In this document: positions 6,761-14,532 of the stretch, piece by piece
Layout of the letters: each line of letters starts with the position of its first letter
Numbering within the stretch: the first letter of the stretch is position 1
Assembly (NCBI GenBank): GCA_003134435.1
Contig: PLBE01000225.1
Coordinates: 1-64,000 of the forward strand
Origin: Acidobacteriaceae bacterium
GTDB taxonomy: Bacteria > Acidobacteriota > Terriglobia > Terriglobales > Acidobacteriaceae
Direction: 5' to 3'
DNA length: 64,000 bases
Program-made: the position numbers and the translations under genes
The notes under the pieces: model-generated
Seen by the model: only the letters and a program-made list of their open reading frames with translations
The model's database searches: none
What the model was told of the DNA's origin: nothing

Positions 6761-8110
6761 TCATGATCTCAAACTCGACGCCCTGCCAACGTCGAACCCA
6801 GTAGCCGACACACCCGCTGATTTCACCGCCGTCATTTGCTGGCGGAATGTTTGAACTCCTGCTCGCAGGTGCTCGATCCCAACCTTTGACTGGGAATCAA
6901 ATGCGAGTTGCCCTGCGAGAATGTAGCTTTCCCGAAGCTGCGCGAAAGAAAGCCCCGTGGCCTCTCCAGTAATGCTCCTCAATGACGGAAGATCGAATGC
7001 GCCACGACTCAGGTGCCGGAGGTAGTGCGCGGCCAAAGCTGGCTCGGGAGGGCGAAAAGCAACGACCCGATCAAATCTGCCCGGACGCTTTAGAATCGCC
7101 CCATCTAGCATGGTAGGATCGTTTGCCGTCGCAACCACGATTAACCCGTCTTGGGTGCCAATTCCATCAAGGCAATTCAGAAAGTGCTGAAGGGTTATCT
7201 TCAAGCGCCTCTCGCGGTCCTCCTGCTGTGCAAAGGCTCTGTCCAAGTCCTCAAGCACGACGAGGGACGGCGCATTTTGCGATGCCATTTCAAAAAAACC
7301 AGTGAGGGATTCGTTGGTTAAGCATTCGTGGCAAAAATCGAGAGTGAACGGTGTGATTGCAGGGTGCGATGCCATCACCTTAATCACGCTGGTTTTTCCG
7401 TTGCCGGGAGGCCCGTAGAAGAGGTAGCCGCGACGGAATGGCAATCCGTGTTCTCGGAACCACTGCTCCCGATGGAAGAATGCTTCAAAGTCACTTCTGA
7501 CCAACTGAGTGGTGGAAGGCTCAAGCACGACCGAATCCCAGTCATACTTGGGTGTAAAGTTCAGGTGTCCTCCACCAAACGTCTTCACATGCTTGGGCGA
7601 TTCGGAGATCAGAGAGCCGAGTCGAGCGAGCACCGAAGCAGCGGAGGAGCGGTTGATTATCAGCCAACTCCTCCAATCGGATACCAAGCCGTCACGGAAG
7701 GACACAAAAGGTACGTTGACAGCAACGAAGGCTGTGCGCTCCTCTTTCATCCAGACTGCGATTGGACAGTCTCGCCATTCGGCGTGCCAAGCGGTTTCTC
7801 GCTGGACGATCCAACCTCCTCGCTTGTGTGACGGCGCAAGATTCACACGTGGACTGACGCCCCCAGCCAACTCCCAGCGGTCAATGGCTGCCCTAAATGA
7901 AGAGGTTTCTTCAGCAATATCGTCAACGGGAACTCCCTTCAGCAGTTCAGCGATGACCAGCCGACCAATCGGCAATTCGATTTCGAACGTCACTGTATCT
8001 GGAAGAGCGCAGCCGAGAACTTTTTCCAGCCACGGCAAATACGGCTCTAAGCTGTCACGCATGGATGCCACTGCTGGCGCAAAACGAATTTGAGTCGATG
8101 TGATCGCCAC
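6761..8110 (-). CDS. BCS1-like AAA+ ATPase
   Basis: A 449-residue protein. The N-terminal half (about residues 1-190) has no domain I recognise. The C-terminal half is a classical AAA+ ATPase of the BCS1 type: GYLFYGPPGNGKTS Walker A near residues 229-242, SLVVLEDLDRAF Walker B, sensor 1 VVATANDP, and arginine finger-type LKRPGRFDRVV. I chose the GTG at 8110 because GAGGAG lies 8 nt upstream and it follows the stop of the upstream gene by 5 bp; a TTG 30 bases upstream would overlap that gene. Probably co-translated with the gene at 8116-8505. Role unknown; the WYL regulator nearby suggests a defence or stress module. Confidence 0.85.
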   Translation of the reverse strand: MAITSTQIRFAPAVASMRDSLEPYLPWLEKVLGCALPDTVTFEIELPIGRLVIAELLKGVPVDDIAEETSSFRAAIDRWELAGGVSPRVNLAPSHKRGGWIVQRETAWHAEWRDCPIAVWMKEERTAFVAVNVPFVSFRDGLVSDWRSWLIINRSSAASVLARLGSLISESPKHVKTFGGGHLNFTPKYDWDSVVLEPSTTQLVRSDFEAFFHREQWFREHGLPFRRGYLFYGPPGNGKTSVIKVMASHPAITPFTLDFCHECLTNESLTGFFEMASQNAPSLVVLEDLDRAFAQQEDRERRLKITLQHFLNCLDGIGTQDGLIVVATANDPTMLDGAILKRPGRFDRVVAFRPPEPALAAHYLRHLSRGAFDLPSLRSITGEATGLSFAQLRESYILAGQLAFDSQSKVGIEHLRAGVQTFRQQMTAVKSAGVSATGFDVGRASSLRS

Positions 8111-8115
8111 GGCTT

Positions 8116-8505
8116 TCACTCCTCGTCGTTGTGCAGACAATCGAAACAGCGATAATGACTGTCGCTTTCAAGCGTAATCTTGTTTGGCAAATGGAGTTCT
8201 TCCTTAATTTTCGCGATCAGGTCTCGGCGTTTCAAAAGGCACTTGTCCGCAAAAAGCATGAATATTTTGGTCTTCGTGTCGTAGGTCACCCGCCCTCGCG
8301 GATATTCCTCGTAAGGCGATTCGGGGGGAGCCTTTCCGATTCGTTGCCATTGTTCCCAAATATCGATGTGACTGTGTGGATAATTTCGGTAATCGTAATA
8401 TTGTTCGGACTGGCTCAACTCAACGCTGTCGATAAGCAGTTTGTTATTGACCAGCCAGAAAATGCCTAGACGTGGCTCAAAGCGAATCTGAGTCGAATTC
8501 ATCAT
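8116..8505 (-). CDS. conserved hypothetical protein with C-terminal CxxC
   Basis: About 129 residues from the ATG at 8505 (a second ATG follows at once). It resembles a family of short bacterial proteins of unknown function with the order [I/F]W-x-[V/I]NNKLL, YGDY/YYDYRNYPHSHIDIWE, P(E)YEEYPRGRV-YD and a final SHYRCFDC. The closing CxxC could bind metal. Residues 4-9, STQIRF followed by P one residue on, match the start of the AAA+ protein encoded just downstream. The gene is the first of a two-gene operon divergent from the WYL regulator. No function is known to me. Confidence 0.7.
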   Translation of the reverse strand: MMNSTQIRFEPRLGIFWLVNNKLLIDSVELSQSEQYYDYRNYPHSHIDIWEQWQRIGKAPPESPYEEYPRGRVTYDTKTKIFMLFADKCLLKRRDLIAKIKEELHLPNKITLESDSHYRCFDCLHNDEE

Positions 8506-8521
8506 AAGAACACTGTAAGGC

Positions 8522-8545
8522 GTCACCTGTGACACCTGAGGTCAC
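8522..8545. promoter_or_regulatory. three GTCAC half-sites, candidate WYL-regulator operator
   Basis: Between the divergent AAA-module and WYL genes: GTCAC at 8522-8526, its complement GTGAC at 8529-8533, and GTCAC at 8541-8545. The first pair forms GTCAC-CT-GTGAC and the second pair GTGAC-N7-GTCAC. This is the arrangement expected for a dimeric regulator covering the minus-strand promoter. Assignment to the WYL protein is by location only. Confidence 0.45.
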
Positions 8546-8654
8546 CCGTTCTCATCCGAGCATCTGCATCGGAGCGACCTTGGCTGACACACATCATTGC
8601 GATGATCGACGCAGACAGATAGGCTATGCGGTACGGCTGGTCGGGTGCGCCTTT

Positions 8655-9629
8655 ATGCCACGGGGCGATCAACTAACACGGCAGTGGAAGCTCGTCCGCC
8701 TCTTGAGCGGAAAGCTGGGACGTTCGCTCGCCCAACTGCGTGCAGAACTGGGAGTGAGCAAGCGGACGGTGCAGCGCGACATCGGGGACTTGGAGCGGGC
8801 TGGGTTTCCTGTAGTTTCGGAGACCCGGCACGAAACGATCTATTGGCACTTCATTGAGGGCTTCTGCGCGGAATCTCCCGTCTCGCTCACTCTGACTGAG
8901 TTGATGGCTCTGTATTACAGTCGGGGGCTGCTTCGCCCTCTTCAAGGGAGCAACATCTACGACTCCCTCGAATCCGCGATGCAGAAAATCGGTGCCACAT
9001 TGCCTGCGGAGAGCCATCGGTTTATGCGCGATTTCGAAGGAGCGATAGCGGTCAGCACATTTGGATGGAAAGATTACAGCCACTCACGCGAGATCATCGA
9101 CAAGCTGACAAAGGCGCTGCTACACAGGTACACCGTCTGTCTTGAGCACACGGCGGTCGGATATGACGAGCCCGTTTCGCGAGATGTCGATCCGTACAAG
9201 CTCTGGTATGTGAACAACGGTTTGTATCTGGTGGGACGAGACCACCGAAGCGAGGATTTGCGCGTATTTGCAGTCGAGCGGATCACTTCCGTCTCTCTGA
9301 CGAATCGCCGATTTCAGATTCCTTCCAGTTTCAACTTCGACAAATTCTCCGAGTCGGCGTTCGGCATGATTTGGGGCGAGGCGCAAGAGGTGGAAATCAG
9401 GTTCTCGAAGCATCAAGCGCCGTACATCCGAGAACGAATGTGGCACCCGAGCCAAAGCGTTGCGACTGAACGGAATGGACGTGTGGTTCTGCGCTTGAGG
9501 GTTGCCGATCTTGGCGAGGTGAAGCGATGGCTGATCGGGTTTGGCGCGGACGCCCGTGTGCTTAAGCCATCCAACCTCCGGCGTGAGATTGCCGCTGAAT
9601 GTGCTCGCGTTGCTCGCCGTACAAGCTGA
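8655..9629 (+). CDS. WYL-domain transcriptional regulator
   Basis: 324 residues from the ATG at 8655. An in-frame ATG-less extension reaches 8529, but MPRGDQLTRQWKLVRLL is the usual beginning of this family. An N-terminal HTH_11 winged helix (SLAQLRAELGVSKRTVQRDIGDLERAGFPV, about residues 20-60) is followed by a WYL domain (about 130-230; WYVNNGLYLVGRDH, FAVERITSVSLTNRRFQIP) and a WCX-like C-terminus. WYL regulators often sit beside phage-defence, DNA-damage or CRISPR genes and respond to nucleic-acid ligands. Here it is divergent from the AAA+/small-protein operon, which it probably controls. Confidence 0.88.
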   Translation: MPRGDQLTRQWKLVRLLSGKLGRSLAQLRAELGVSKRTVQRDIGDLERAGFPVVSETRHETIYWHFIEGFCAESPVSLTLTELMALYYSRGLLRPLQGSNIYDSLESAMQKIGATLPAESHRFMRDFEGAIAVSTFGWKDYSHSREIIDKLTKALLHRYTVCLEHTAVGYDEPVSRDVDPYKLWYVNNGLYLVGRDHRSEDLRVFAVERITSVSLTNRRFQIPSSFNFDKFSESAFGMIWGEAQEVEIRFSKHQAPYIRERMWHPSQSVATERNGRVVLRLRVADLGEVKRWLIGFGADARVLKPSNLRREIAAECARVARRTS

Positions 9630-9667: not shown

Positions 9668-10024
9668 CTATTTCTCACCATGCAACTGCTGCGCGAGGTA
9701 GTTGGCCATGCCCAATTCCTTGATGGAATGAAGCTGAGCGTCCAAGAAGTCCACGTGCCCTTCTTCGTCCTTGAGCATGCGCTGAAATAAGTCGCCTGAT
9801 CCGTTGTCCCCGGCTTCGGCACAGATTTTCATAGCGGAGTTGTACTGGTGTACGGCCTCTTCCTCGTCCTTGAAGTCGCCTTCGAGTTGCTGTTGCACGT
9901 TAGCACCAATCTTGGGAGTCAGAGCGACATCCACCTTGGGTGTGGCATCCAAGAACACGATGCGTTCGATAAGACCTTCTGGTCGGCGGAATCTGAGGTA
10001 AAGGCTAGGTTTCGGTTTTCGCAT
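9668..10024 (-). pseudogene. truncated bacterioferritin-like gene
   Basis: The 118-residue frame matches bacterioferritin only from about residue 17 on (GLIERIVFLDATP... KDEEGHVDFLDAQLHSIKELGMANYLAQQL). This equals the second half of the intact gene at 14050-14532, at roughly half identity, so it is not a recent copy. Helix A and most of helix B are missing, including the counterparts of Glu18, Glu51, Met52 and His54; the first 16 residues are unrelated. It cannot form a normal ferroxidase site. The break lies about 150 bp from the attachment repeat at 10135, so truncation by an earlier integration or excision is plausible. Confidence 0.7.
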
Positions 10025-10134: not shown

Positions 10135-10152
10135 TGGCGGAGAGAGTGGGAT
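10135..10152 (+). other. distal attachment site (att core copy)
   Basis: tggcggagagagtgggat, identical to the last 18 nt of the tRNA-Ser gene and in the same orientation. Identity ends on both sides (C instead of A before, A instead of T after). This is the duplicate left at the far junction by site-specific integration. Confidence 0.75.
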
Positions 10153-10271
10153 ACGACACCGGGCGTGGGCAATTTTGCCCATAACACTGGTAAAATCCAT
10201 CGCTATCAATCACATCCGTCTGGGCGTTCCTGCCTAAGAAAGCCCATTTTGACCCTTAAACCGAGCCAGTT

Positions 10272-10988
10272 TTAGTACGGAATAGTACGGCAGCCTTCGT
10301 CTACCGGACTATCGGTCGAAGTATCGAGTTCAGCCGCCCAACAGAAGACTGAAACGAGGGTTCTGATCTCCTCATCCGAGAACTTCTTAGTCTTGAGGGG
10401 TTGATCTGTCTCCGTATCGTCTGCTGCTTTGCTCTGTGTGGACGCATTCGTATGCGTATACGTATGCGGTTCCTCGACAGCATTCGAACCCTTACCACCA
10501 CCCCGTCCGTCCACCCCTCCACCGTTCTGTATATGATTGCCGGGGGATTTACCTACAGTGGGCTTTTTACCTACAGTTGAATCCTCGACTGTTGGTAAAT
10601 CCCTTACAGTACCCCCAAGAGGCTGAATCAGAATGCGATAGGTGTTAGTCGCCTTGACGGAGCCGGGGTGAATCGGGTGGAATCCGACAAACTCGATCAG
10701 CTTCAACTCTTGGCAGAGATCGATGCCATCTTTGGCGGCGTCGTAGCTCGAACCCATTTTCTTGGCGAGAGCCGTCTGGCCGATATACGTCTCGCGTGTA
10801 TCGAAGTCCATGCTGTCGATCAGACACAGCATGGTGAACTTAGCCTTGCCCTTGATATCGGCGGCGATGATCGCGTTGATGTACGGAATGTGTCGGTTGT
10901 CCACAATGCGCTCCAAACAGACGCGGCCCGCGCCGACCGTGGAAGGAAGAAGACGCAGGCCGTTGCCTCCGCTTGGAAGCAAACTCAA
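10272..10988 (-). CDS. winged-helix/HTH_36-like DNA-binding protein of the element
   Basis: 238 residues. The central part (about 25-125) resembles replication-protein-like winged helices: KAKFTMLCLIDSMD, then TYIGQTALAKKMG and a recognition-helix-like SYDAAKDGIDLCQEL, then a wing with KATNTYRIL. It is followed by a low-complexity Gly/Thr-rich linker with a TVG(K)KPTVGK repeat and a short acidic C-terminal tail that stops abruptly. It may be the element's replication or regulatory protein. The exact start is uncertain because the first 25 residues are not conserved-looking. The lack of a clear C-terminal domain could reflect truncation at the element end. Confidence 0.6.
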   Translation of the reverse strand: MSLLPSGGNGLRLLPSTVGAGRVCLERIVDNRHIPYINAIIAADIKGKAKFTMLCLIDSMDFDTRETYIGQTALAKKMGSSYDAAKDGIDLCQELKLIEFVGFHPIHPGSVKATNTYRILIQPLGGTVRDLPTVEDSTVGKKPTVGKSPGNHIQNGGGVDGRGGGKGSNAVEEPHTYTHTNASTQSKAADDTETDQPLKTKKFSDEEIRTLVSVFCWAAELDTSTDSPVDEGCRTIPY

Positions 10989-11059
10989 ACTTGTTGTGCT
11001 GACCTTCCACGGTCAATTGTCGTCTAACTGACATTCCGCAGCGATGAAGTCTGCGGACA

Positions 11060-12235
11060 TTAACGATTCTTTTGACCCATTGCCATGTCTTCTCTAACGG
11101 TTTTGTCTGCCCATGCGCGCAGCCGCTCTTGGTCACCCGGCTCGTCTAGATGCTGGTTACGACGCATGATCTCGTCAACCTGCTTCCTGATTGCTTGTTC
11201 TCTGTCTATTTCTGCCTCCAGCCTAGGGATGCTGTTCTCTAACTTTGACTTTTGTTCGTTCGGGGTTGAGTCCGAGTCATCAGGGGACAGCTGCTCCAGT
11301 TGCGCCGCCATTTGCGAAAACTTGTAGCGGCGTACACTGCGCTCACCCTCGCCATTCCTGAGACGGCAGAGTTTGTCGTACTCGCATAAGCACCCTTGGA
11401 TATCCTGCGCATGGAGATTCAGCCCTGTTACCTGCCGAATCGGTTCGCGGACGGTATCACAGAGTTGGCGAAATTCCGCATACCAAGCCGCCTCGGCCCA
11501 GTATTTGCGCGGGGTACGTCCCAGCACTCGGTCCAAGCCACGACGGGACCCCGGACCCGAGACCGCAAACGTCCACCAGTCAGACGCATCCTGAAGCTGA
11601 ACGTATTTCAAGTCGGCTACGACCTGACCTGCATAGAAGCCGCCCATATACGGACCCTCACTCAACCTTGAGGCGAAGGACGAAAGTGTATCGCCATGAC
11701 GAGGACGGTAGTAGTCGCGCCGCTCCCAGATGGGGGTGAGCACATGGCTCACGATCAGGTCGGCTTGTTCCCCGGCCTGACCCGACACCATGACCTTGTA
11801 TGCCTGCGCTTCGTAGGCTTTGTGACCAGCGGCTTGGCGAGACCGAATCACGGCCCTGAAATGCTCGGGGTTCCACGGCACGGGATACCCAAGCTCGGCC
11901 AGTGTGTCAGGCCAGTTGACGGCACGGCGTGCGACTAGCAGTGCGAACCACAATTCTGGATCATTCTCGAATGGCTCACGATAGAGGGTAGCTATGCCTT
12001 TTGTGACGCGGTCATCTTCGCGACGAACACAGCAGAACTTGTAGTCGCGAAGTATCGGGTCGTTGGTCCACGGCCAAGGCTGTCCCGCCTCTTTTTTGAG
12101 CCGGACATGCTCACGCTCCGCGACGAAATGCAGAAGTGCTTCTGTCTCTTTCATCACTCCTCTATTGATTGGAAAGCCGGGTGAGTCGCCCCACCCGGAT
12201 CGCGACTTTGACCACGAGCGTTCCCTCCGCATCAC
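11060..12235 (-). CDS. 5-hmdU DNA kinase helical-domain / aGPT-pyrophosphorylase-like protein
   Basis: 391 residues. Residues about 30-280 resemble the Pfam HMUDK_hel family of thymine-hypermodification proteins (5-hmdU DNA kinase, alpha-glutamyl/putrescinyl-thymine pyrophosphorylase): a pattern with PWPWTNDPILRDYKFCCV-R-x-DDRVT, then DPELWFALLVARRAVNWPDTL and GYPVPWNPEHF. Family members act on hydroxymethyl-uracil in phage DNA; a role here in base modification or its control is inference. The last 110 residues are charged and probably coiled coil. Start is the GTG at 12235, overlapping the upstream stop as GTGA, so translation is likely coupled; Met28 is an alternative start. Confidence 0.68.
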   Translation of the reverse strand: MMRRERSWSKSRSGWGDSPGFPINRGVMKETEALLHFVAEREHVRLKKEAGQPWPWTNDPILRDYKFCCVRREDDRVTKGIATLYREPFENDPELWFALLVARRAVNWPDTLAELGYPVPWNPEHFRAVIRSRQAAGHKAYEAQAYKVMVSGQAGEQADLIVSHVLTPIWERRDYYRPRHGDTLSSFASRLSEGPYMGGFYAGQVVADLKYVQLQDASDWWTFAVSGPGSRRGLDRVLGRTPRKYWAEAAWYAEFRQLCDTVREPIRQVTGLNLHAQDIQGCLCEYDKLCRLRNGEGERSVRRYKFSQMAAQLEQLSPDDSDSTPNEQKSKLENSIPRLEAEIDREQAIRKQVDEIMRRNQHLDEPGDQERLRAWADKTVREDMAMGQKNR

Positions 12236-12438
12236 TGGATTGTGTCGTCTTCAAACACAATCCGCTTGGCTTGGCTGCGGGCCGCTTCAGCCCACTGCCG
12301 TGCTTCAGCGATTGCAACACCCGCCGTTAGAACGAAGTCACATGCCGCACTTTCATTCCCGGAGATCGTCCGAGCGACGGTGTCACATAGAGCATCGTTC
12401 AGCACTTCAAGCCACTTGATGCGTTCGGTTTTTGTCAT
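12232..12438 (-). CDS. small hypothetical protein (68 aa)
   Basis: A 68-residue, mostly helical protein (LNDALCDTVARTISG..., AIAEARQWAEAARSQAKRI). It has a good Shine-Dalgarno, AAGGAG, about 11 nt upstream of ATG 12438, and a 4-base GTGA overlap with the following gene, so it is almost certainly translated as the first gene of an operon. No domain recognised. It may be a partner or regulator of the protein encoded downstream. Confidence 0.7.
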   Translation of the reverse strand: MTKTERIKWLEVLNDALCDTVARTISGNESAACDFVLTAGVAIAEARQWAEAARSQAKRIVFEDDTIQ

Positions 12439-12460: not shown

Positions 12461-12478
12461 CTGAGACACGTGTCCCAG
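12461..12478. promoter_or_regulatory. 18-bp near-perfect palindrome, candidate operator
   Basis: CTGAGACACGTGTCCCAG, one mismatched pair in nine, with a perfect 10-bp centre GACACGTGTC at 12465-12474. It lies 23 bp upstream of the ATG at 12438, within the 114-bp gap between the integrase stop and the cargo operon. The position fits an operator for the cargo genes; the binding protein could be the element's own winged-helix protein. Confidence 0.5.
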
Positions 12479-12552: not shown

Positions 12553-13803
12553 TCACTCCGTTGACGGGTATACGGTCATGATTGCCGGATCGCTCGCCGA
12601 CACAGCGATGCTGCCGTCCGGCAGAACCGTCGCGACCGGGAAGAGCATTGAAATCTTCTTCTTCCACACTTTGTTCAGCTTTTCTTTGATGATGTCGTTT
12701 GTGGCGGGAGCCAAGTACCGCATCGTGCTTTGAACGTCCTTGTGGCCTAGCAAGTACTGCACCGTTGGAACATCAAGCCCGGAGCGTAGGCAGGCCGTGG
12801 CATAGGTTGATCTAAATTTGTGCAAGTAAAACTTCTTCTCATCCAGTTCCGCTTTTTTCGCGATGTCCTTGCACCAGCGCAGTAGTTTCTCGTTGGGACG
12901 TCCGTGAATGTTCGGGAAAACGAGGTTGTGTTGCGGACGCCCCTTTCGCGACTTCTTTGAATGCTGCTCCAAGGCTCGCGTCAAATCCTCGGGAACAACC
13001 ATCTCGCGCTCCGAATTTGTCTTGGGTACCCAGCCATAATGAGGCTTGGCGCTGACCCTCAGCGTGCTTTCTTTGAAATTCAAATCAGACCATTCCAAGT
13101 GAATGAGTTCCCTCTCGCGAAGACCCACTTTCAAGAAGACAGAGAAGATCAATGACTCCGTCGAATCACAGGCTTTGAAAAACGCATCAAGCTCCTCCTG
13201 CGTGTAAACCTCCGGCATCTCCTCAACATACTTGGGAGCATCGCGACCGCTCACGAGTCTGATGCCCTTTGATTTCAGGAAAGAATGGACCGTCAGAAAC
13301 TTGTCGCAGGCAGTTCGCGGGGATCGCTTGTTCTTGAGAAGCCATTCGCGATACTTCAGGACATCGATCCGGGTCACGTCTCCGAGATTCGTTCGCTTGG
13401 CGTACCCGAGAAACTCTTCCAGCGTCTGTTTCGTCTTGCAGTAGGAGTTCGGCCTGTGCGTCAGGCGATAGTCCTCCAGATAGGCGTAGATTGCCGCTGA
13501 GAGGAGGAGGGACGGGCCTGCAGGTTCCGTTACCGCAATACCGAGGCTTCTTGCGTTCAGAACGCTTCGCTGAATCTCGGCTTCGTTCTGGGCATCCGCA
13601 GCGTTCTTACATTTCCGGGTGCGCTGCCTTTTCCCCTCGTACCACTTAATGATGTAGTCGGAGTCGGGGTGGTGTTCCTTGTGCCCGTTGACGTGGCACC
13701 AGTCCGGTTTGATCTTATTGTTCCGAGCCGTGACAGGCCTGTAGTACGACCAGACGCCATTCACTTTTGCGGATTGATAGATCGCGACACGGAGGTTCGC
13801 CAT
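12553..13803 (-). CDS. tyrosine recombinase (phage-type integrase)
   Basis: 416 residues from the ATG at 13803 (an alternative start lies 4 codons upstream). An N-terminal arm-binding-like region and a SAM-like core-binding domain (AIYAYLEDYRLTHRPNSY..., SPRTACDKFLTVHSFL) precede the catalytic domain. Catalytic residues are visible: Arg in VGLRERELIHLEW, the HKFRSTYAT box (H-x-x-R), His in LLGHKD, and the nucleophile Tyr in STMRYL. It lies 70 bp inside the tRNA-Ser 3' end with its start toward the tRNA. It should catalyse integration and excision at the 18-bp core. Confidence 0.92.
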   Translation of the reverse strand: MANLRVAIYQSAKVNGVWSYYRPVTARNNKIKPDWCHVNGHKEHHPDSDYIIKWYEGKRQRTRKCKNAADAQNEAEIQRSVLNARSLGIAVTEPAGPSLLLSAAIYAYLEDYRLTHRPNSYCKTKQTLEEFLGYAKRTNLGDVTRIDVLKYREWLLKNKRSPRTACDKFLTVHSFLKSKGIRLVSGRDAPKYVEEMPEVYTQEELDAFFKACDSTESLIFSVFLKVGLRERELIHLEWSDLNFKESTLRVSAKPHYGWVPKTNSEREMVVPEDLTRALEQHSKKSRKGRPQHNLVFPNIHGRPNEKLLRWCKDIAKKAELDEKKFYLHKFRSTYATACLRSGLDVPTVQYLLGHKDVQSTMRYLAPATNDIIKEKLNKVWKKKISMLFPVATVLPDGSIAVSASDPAIMTVYPSTE

Positions 13804-13873
13804 AAGGCGAACCATACCTCAAAACCATACAATCGTAGTACAACCGCCCGTAACACTATGGAAACTAAAGTTA

Positions 13874-13891
13874 TGGCGGAGAGAGTGGGAT
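13874..13891 (+). other. proximal attachment site within tRNA-Ser 3' end
   Basis: tggcggagagagtgggat on the plus strand, equal to the CCA, discriminator, acceptor 3' strand and part of the T arm of the tRNA read in reverse. It matches the distal copy at 10135-10152 exactly, and the tRNA stays intact. Confidence 0.75.
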
Positions 13892-13963
13892 TCGAACCCA
13901 CGTTACCCTTTCGAGTAAACACGCTTTCCAAGCGTGCGCCTTCAGCCACTCGGCCATCTCTCC
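13874..13963 (-). tRNA. tRNA-Ser(GGA), CCA encoded
   Basis: A 90-nt class II tRNA. The acceptor stem is GGAGAGA paired with TCTCTCC, followed by discriminator G and an encoded CCA. The D arm reads GGCCGAGTGGCTGAAGG, the anticodon stem-loop is CACGCTTGGAAAGCGTG with anticodon GGA, there is a long variable arm, and the T arm is GTGGGTTCGAATCCCAC. It is the integration target of the element on its 3' side. Confidence 0.97.
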
Positions 13964-14049: not shown

Positions 14050-14532
14050 CTAGCTTTCCTCGGGCTTGTGTAGTTGCTGCGCTAGATAATTCTCATAGGT
14101 CATCTCTTTGATCGCGTGCAGTTGCGCTTCCAACCAGTCGATGTGATGTTCTTCATCCAGCAGAATCTTCTCCATCAGTTCCCGCGAGCCGTTGTCGCCC
14201 ACCGCCACGCTGGCTTGGATGCCGTCGTTCAGCCGTTTCACTGCCGTGTATTCCAGCTCCAGATCGTTTTCCAGTTGCGCCTTGAGAGTCTGCCCAATGT
14301 TGATCTTGAAATAGTCGGTCATGTTGGGCGCACCGTCGAGATACAGGATGCGTTCCATCAGAATCTCGGCATGCTGCATTTCTTCGATGGATTCCTTGCG
14401 AATCTGCTTGGCCATGCGTTCATAGCCCCAGTTCTCACACATCTCCGCGTGCAGAAAATACTGGTTGATGGCCGTGAGTTCGGCTTTAAGAACCTCGTTC
14501 AGAATCGCAATAACCTTTGCGTCGCCCTTCAT
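14050..14532 (-). CDS. bfr: bacterioferritin
   Basis: 160 residues, the usual length. Ferroxidase ligands are in place: Glu18, Glu51 and His54 in EEMQHAE, and Glu/His in LDEEHHIDWLE; Met52 is the haem-binding methionine. It stores iron in a 24-subunit cytoplasmic shell and oxidises Fe(II). It lies just beyond tRNA-Ser on the same strand. A truncated, divergent relative is found on the other side of the mobile element at 9668-10024. Confidence 0.95.
   Translation of the reverse strand: MKGDAKVIAILNEVLKAELTAINQYFLHAEMCENWGYERMAKQIRKESIEEMQHAEILMERILYLDGAPNMTDYFKINIGQTLKAQLENDLELEYTAVKRLNDGIQASVAVGDNGSRELMEKILLDEEHHIDWLEAQLHAIKEMTYENYLAQQLHKPEES

Follow-up and report, generated by a model that had tools for sequence, protein, structure and literature searches.

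A phage-clade HMUDK_hel protein as the sole recognisable cargo of a small tRNA-borne integrative element in an Acidobacteriaceae bacterium, and its possible anti-phage role

The window, by which we mean the whole 64,000-nucleotide stretch analysed here (contig PLBE01000225.1, positions 1 to 64,000), contains a 3.7-kb element that lies between the 3' end of a tRNA-Ser(GGA) gene (13874..13963, minus strand; ARAGORN) and a 22-bp direct repeat of that end. The attachment repeat within the tRNA 3' end, the integration target, occupies 13874..13895 and its partner at the opposite end of the element 10135..10156 (both plus strand, 21/22 identical). Even if up to three mismatches are allowed, a search for the repeat returns no site beyond these two, and shuffles put the number expected by chance at 0.00. 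A tyrosine integrase gene (12553..13815, minus strand; PF00589, E 4.4e-27) adjoins the tRNA. An integrase next to a tRNA whose 3' end is repeated is what identifies a tRNA-borne integrative element, and the mobile-element context claimed in a preliminary description of this DNA is hence borne out by the integrase, the tRNA-Ser target and the 22-bp repeats.

Apart from the integrase, the element contains a 68-aa ORF, an HMUDK_hel gene, which is its sole recognisable cargo, and an orphan ORF of 238 aa. The latter (10272..10988, minus strand, from TTG) has no Pfam match, shows weak similarity to replication initiators (phrog_270, E 0.053) and has no relative in 299 other genomes of the family. 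No known defence gene lies inside the element. Among the element ORFs scanned there is also no other base-modification gene, as had been stated before, and in particular no amino acid:DNA transferase (PF18724). A related DNA element in plasmids was considered and rejected, as no match was found.

Ferritin-like genes stand on both flanks of the element (window 9668-10024 and 14050-14532), the left one shortened at its N-terminus. The side with the tRNA and the ferritin-like gene can be aligned in relatives; the left flank cannot. The surroundings also include a WYL-domain regulator (window 8529-9629; PF13280, PF25583) that matches PADLOC CRISPR-associated WYL models, and an AAA ATPase (window 6761-8535) with weak similarity to the anti-phage protein IetA (PADLOC 2.6e-11, under the NCBIfam cut-off), which is adjoined, just outside the element, by a 139-aa ORF without Pfam match. 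At five loci of the same genus (L046, L047, L049, L050 and L051) related integrases adjoin tRNA-Ser or tRNA-Leu genes and have differing neighbours. These loci possibly represent a hotspot family of small islands.

Read mechanically, the HMUDK_hel gene is an ORF of 391 aa from a GTG at 12235 (11060-12235, minus strand). PF18723 (HMUDK_hel) matches residues 32-296 of this ORF (E 1.1e-34) with 120.6 bits against a curated cut-off of 25, and phrog_2396 matches with E 1.6e-43. The profile search that had been proposed as a check on the family thus confirms the earlier assignment to the HMUDK_hel type. The 391-residue ORF exists as described, but the protein is likely shorter. The 27 residues ahead of Met28 have no counterpart in relatives, which begin near this position, the 27 codons preceding Met28 are without the codon pattern seen in the rest of the gene, and AGAGGAG lies upstream of ATG 12154. 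Hence, the gene probably starts at ATG 12154 and encodes 364 aa (11060..12154, minus strand), a part for which codon-position G+C bias supports coding. The GTGA overlap with the 68-aa ORF is present as letters, but with this start it becomes doubtful; the gene would begin 77 nt beyond the stop codon of the 68-aa ORF.

The 68-aa ORF (12232..12438, minus strand) has a good ribosome-binding site (AAAGGAG), and codon-position G+C bias supports its coding less clearly than that of the 364-aa part. Its similarity to CcdA is sub-threshold (E 0.0051, 17.6 bits, cut-off 22.4), and none of 299 other genomes of the family holds a convincing relative (a single match at E 0.005). Upstream of it lies a possible operator, an imperfect 18-bp palindrome (12461..12478). 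The "strong palindrome" reported earlier exists as a site, but it contains one mismatched pair. Its 10-bp core occurs exactly once in the window, and with up to one mismatch in two places, as expected by chance. The promoter scan yielded no promoter-like site. Just past the HMUDK_hel stop, a 7-bp stem with a 9-nt loop (11035..11057) could be a terminator; the terminator scan, in which terminators were at chance level, did not pick it up. The gene order, the palindrome and the CcdA similarity would suit a toxin-antitoxin-like pair, in which the 68-aa protein is the antitoxin, the HMUDK_hel protein an effector of glycosylase fold and the palindrome the operator. With a CcdA match under the cut-off and an orphan in the antitoxin's place, we regard such a pair as extremely improbable.

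HMUDK_hel relatives occur in 108 of 50,697 phage records, mostly from Pseudomonas phages and all below 60 percent identity, and at least 566 IMG/VR stretches encode further ones (36 to 47 percent identity in the best segment for the best 80). The window protein is 32% identical to gp55 of phage M6 and up to 49% identical to proteins of environmental phages. A single scan of the genome_contigs collection (84,980 species) turned up five loci with relatives; most of these have neighbours typical of phages, for example thymidylate synthase, HD hydrolase or polymerase genes. At order level 10 of 249 genomes have an HMUDK_hel match, including the element's own genome, which carries one PF18723 gene. 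In a FastTree tree of 71 sequences, from which a broken piece (G109) was left out, the window protein is nested inside the phage clade. It pairs with sequence G214 (support 0.983) and then with phage sequences L068 and L076 (0.885). Local support on the last four nodes toward the window protein is 0.83-0.98, and several deeper nodes are weak (0.13 to 0.66). As far as a sequence tree can tell, the gene is of phage ancestry. A further stand-alone member outside phages was found in Ramlibacter (L149); its locus also holds an integrase and a methylase of the Eco57I type, and gave no thymidylate synthase match. None of the papers listed by our literature search deals with a stand-alone bacterial member of the family.

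What does the gene do in phages? Within phages HMUDK_hel works as part of a pathway, and we know of no activity for the domain alone. We surveyed the neighbours of the family at 84 loci (79 viral and five from genome_contigs; viral locus L141, which has no matching ORF, was left out), probing with proteins of M6 and nACB2. A thymidylate-synthase-like gene is present at 71 of the 84 loci, and at 51 it follows on the same strand at a distance of no more than 400 nt; a kinase similar to M6 gp54 is present at 20 and an amino acid:DNA transferase (ADDT) at six. These counts are lower bounds because the loci are fragments. M6 itself combines PF18748 (gp54), PF18723 (gp55) and PF18724 (gp51). Among the nearest phage loci (L068, L076, L087 and L093) all four have a thymidylate-synthase-like gene, and all but L076 also have an ADDT-like and a kinase-like gene. 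The family is thus not consistently found with an unrelated pathway. The accessible text of PMC9599517 likewise describes the pairing of thymidylate synthase with clade 1 and a viral clade separate from the bacterial ones.

In the bacterium the situation is different. The genome (5.75 Mb in 261 contigs) is rated 100 percent complete with 4.42 percent contamination. It contains no match to ThyA (PF00303) in a search that was positive in 9 of 14 controls, no match to Tet_JBP (PF12851), for which the G214 control was positive, and no match to the 5-hmdU DNA kinase (PF18748), for which M6 was positive and the phage of L068 sub-threshold. Membership in a complete hypermodification system was rejected on these grounds. 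The option, raised in the preliminary description, that the protein modifies the element's own DNA is also unlikely, unless a phage supplies 5-hydroxymethyluracil (hmdU).

Two explanations would nevertheless keep the protein in the modification business. The host could have an unrecognised source of hmdU, so that the protein modifies host or element DNA. Directly ahead of the G214 gene, which is partial and at a contig end, there is indeed a Tet_JBP oxygenase (6.5e-10) that could turn T into hmdU; the two genes share a 3.2-kb contig (L055:1316-3237). The window's own genome, however, has none of the three profile matches, and we consider an endogenous source very improbable. Alternatively, the element could be a small satellite of a phage, or a passenger, whose own DNA is modified or protected by this protein with hmdU from the helper. 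Its small size, the integrase and the weakly initiator-like ORF would fit, as would the presence of several pathway genes in three of the four nearest phages. Against a helper, the element ORFs scanned include no packaging or capsid-related match, and no viral or plasmid relatives were found for the integrase, the 238-aa and 68-aa proteins or the element DNA. Single-protein scans of viral contigs with the HMUDK_hel cargo, the 238-aa ORF, the integrase and the 68-aa ORF also gave no match. Dependence on a helper is, in our view, rather improbable.

Alignment A3 includes 50 of the 79 viral ORFs and four of the five genome_contigs ORFs. Fifteen columns are invariant across 55 aligned sequences including the window protein, which therefore keeps all of them. 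Of the 36 columns with at least 90 percent conservation, the window protein differs at five. One of these is a lysine present in all 54 other aligned sequences that is a glutamine here. The same lysine is missing from G214 and from the broken G109 copy, and the bacterial-clade sequences shown have a lysine one column further on. The C-terminal tail of the window protein measures 87 residues, against a median of 5 among 72 sequences.

These observations bear on the main rival explanation, that the gene is a neutral relic, picked up from a phage by the island, not yet decayed and functionless in the cell. The five departures, with the invariant lysine among them, are what one might expect of a relic. 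In addition, G109 is a fragmented copy with stops, and the gene was not found in the seven other genomes of the same genus that were listed. On the other hand, the ORF is intact, has codon bias and retains all 15 columns invariant across the 55 sequences; six of the 54 other sequences depart as much or more at the conserved columns, and the new tail suggests adaptation. We consider a relic somewhat unlikely.

An AlphaFold2 model built from 55 sequences (pLDDT 89.6, pTM 0.77) predicts a fold of the helix-hairpin-helix DNA-glycosylase type, to which a helical hairpin is added at the C-terminus, the 87-residue tail being modelled as two helices. The top Foldseek match is 8z2n, a phage 5-PmdU glycinyltransferase (probability 0.98), with an E value of 0.037 that lies over 0.01; 8-oxoguanine glycosylases follow. 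VIA-align gives 8z2n a Z of 10.2 (4.3 A, 223 residues), the queuine salvage enzyme DUF2419 9.7 and MjOgg 9.4, all in the range under 13 that helical folds can reach by chance arrangement. Judging by their titles, we take the first 35 structural matches to be members of the glycosylase superfamily or related base-acting enzymes. F173 and D192, both invariant in 55 sequences, are 19 residues apart, which presumably corresponds to the spacing of about 18-20 residues between the hairpin residue and the catalytic Asp of glycosylases. Although the best structural match is this PUGT/ADDT glycinyltransferase, a relative of M6 gp51, there is no convincing sequence homology between it and the window protein. 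Aligned by hhalign, the HMUDK_hel family and ADDT reach a probability of 8 percent at E 0.0042; the Gly-rich and Q...C motifs fall in register. PDB searches with the window protein and its profile returned chance-level matches only.

The explanation that we tentatively favour is that a phage hypermodification protein has been captured and now serves as an anti-phage factor by acting on phage DNA of the hmdU type when it enters the cell. The element would have captured a single gene of the phage thymine-hypermodification pathway. When a phage infects, the product would bind 5-hydroxymethyluracil or its derivatives in the phage DNA and flip the bound base into its pocket. The base might then be excised, or a wrong or unfinished modification might be left, and the phage would be stopped. 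The host chromosome, without the base, would be spared. The anti-phage step is suggested by the lack of a substrate in the host together with the fold and the mobile location, and the evidence is consistent with such a role. The gene's absence from the seven other listed genomes of the genus would also fit. Speaking against it are the glutamine in place of the conserved lysine, the weak statistics of the fold and the fact that none of the PADLOC models matches the protein. That the gene provides immunity as a single protein, a 3.7-kb island turning the phages' own base-flipping module against hydroxymethyluracil-type phage DNA, seems to us unlikely.

A comparable logic, the excision of modified phage bases, could be shared with the antiviral DNA glycosylases Brig1, Brig2 and Brig3. 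According to the accessible parts of PMC13160076 and PMC13216743, Brig2 acts on modified thymine. The best structural matches of Brig1 and the weak homology of Brig3 are described as uracil DNA glycosylases, whereas our model matches the helix-hairpin-helix type. A Brig-type assignment was provisionally rejected, since no uracil-DNA-glycosylase fold is among the structural matches listed. In profile and core the window protein is the same as phage aGPT-Pplase clade 1 / HMUDK_hel proteins such as M6 gp55 (NC_007809). Unlike these, it lies on a cellular island without an adjacent thymidylate synthase or kinase, lacks the invariant lysine and carries the helical tail.

What HMUDK_hel does biochemically is not settled in the literature that we searched. 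A stand-alone cellular copy, cut off from its pathway, offers a clean way to study the action of the domain on its own. The same copy bears on the question whether phage modification enzymes are recruited against phages.

PF18723 also occurs in bacterial cassettes with thymidylate synthase, a dNMP kinase-HMUDK_hel protein and MazG_C. These belong to a different clade, with about 23-29% identity to the window protein, which has no such partners in its element and no kinase fusion. We compared 15 loci of the bacterial clade (L160-L171, of which L171 is truncated, and the probe sources L062, L063 and L064). Thymidylate-synthase-like genes are present at nine, MazG_C-like genes at ten and dCTP-deaminase-like genes at seven; 13 of the 15 have at least one of these partners. 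Two of six PF18723 members scanned are fused to a thymidylate kinase. According to the accessible text of PMC13092281, anti-phage systems that carry thymidylate synthase, dNMP kinase and "5-hmdU DNA kinase" domains have been validated; an aGPT-Pplase appears there as predicted and unvalidated. Going by the domain name, the "5hmdUk" of that text would be PF18723, with the three domains in one system, and by such names the thymidylate synthase/MazG_C clade matches the published defence system. DNA of the Sinorhizobium cassette was not found in E. coli genomes, which leaves the names as the link to the E. coli system described in this source. For an anti-phage reading of the window protein, the validated system speaks in favour through the family that it probably shares, and against through its different clade and its partners, which are absent from the element.

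The cassettes at L160-L170 recur within the same order and phylum, with thymidylate-synthase-like, kinase-HMUDK_hel, MazG_C and dCTP-deaminase-like genes accompanied by small ORFs. A Flagellatimonas plasmid (L175, NZ_CP092105) carries an HMUDK_hel gene together with thyA, a dUTPase, a lone PglX-labelled gene and many small ORFs. A BREX defence-island context was rejected for it, as nothing but the PglX-labelled gene points to one, and the plasmid is perhaps a phage-plasmid.
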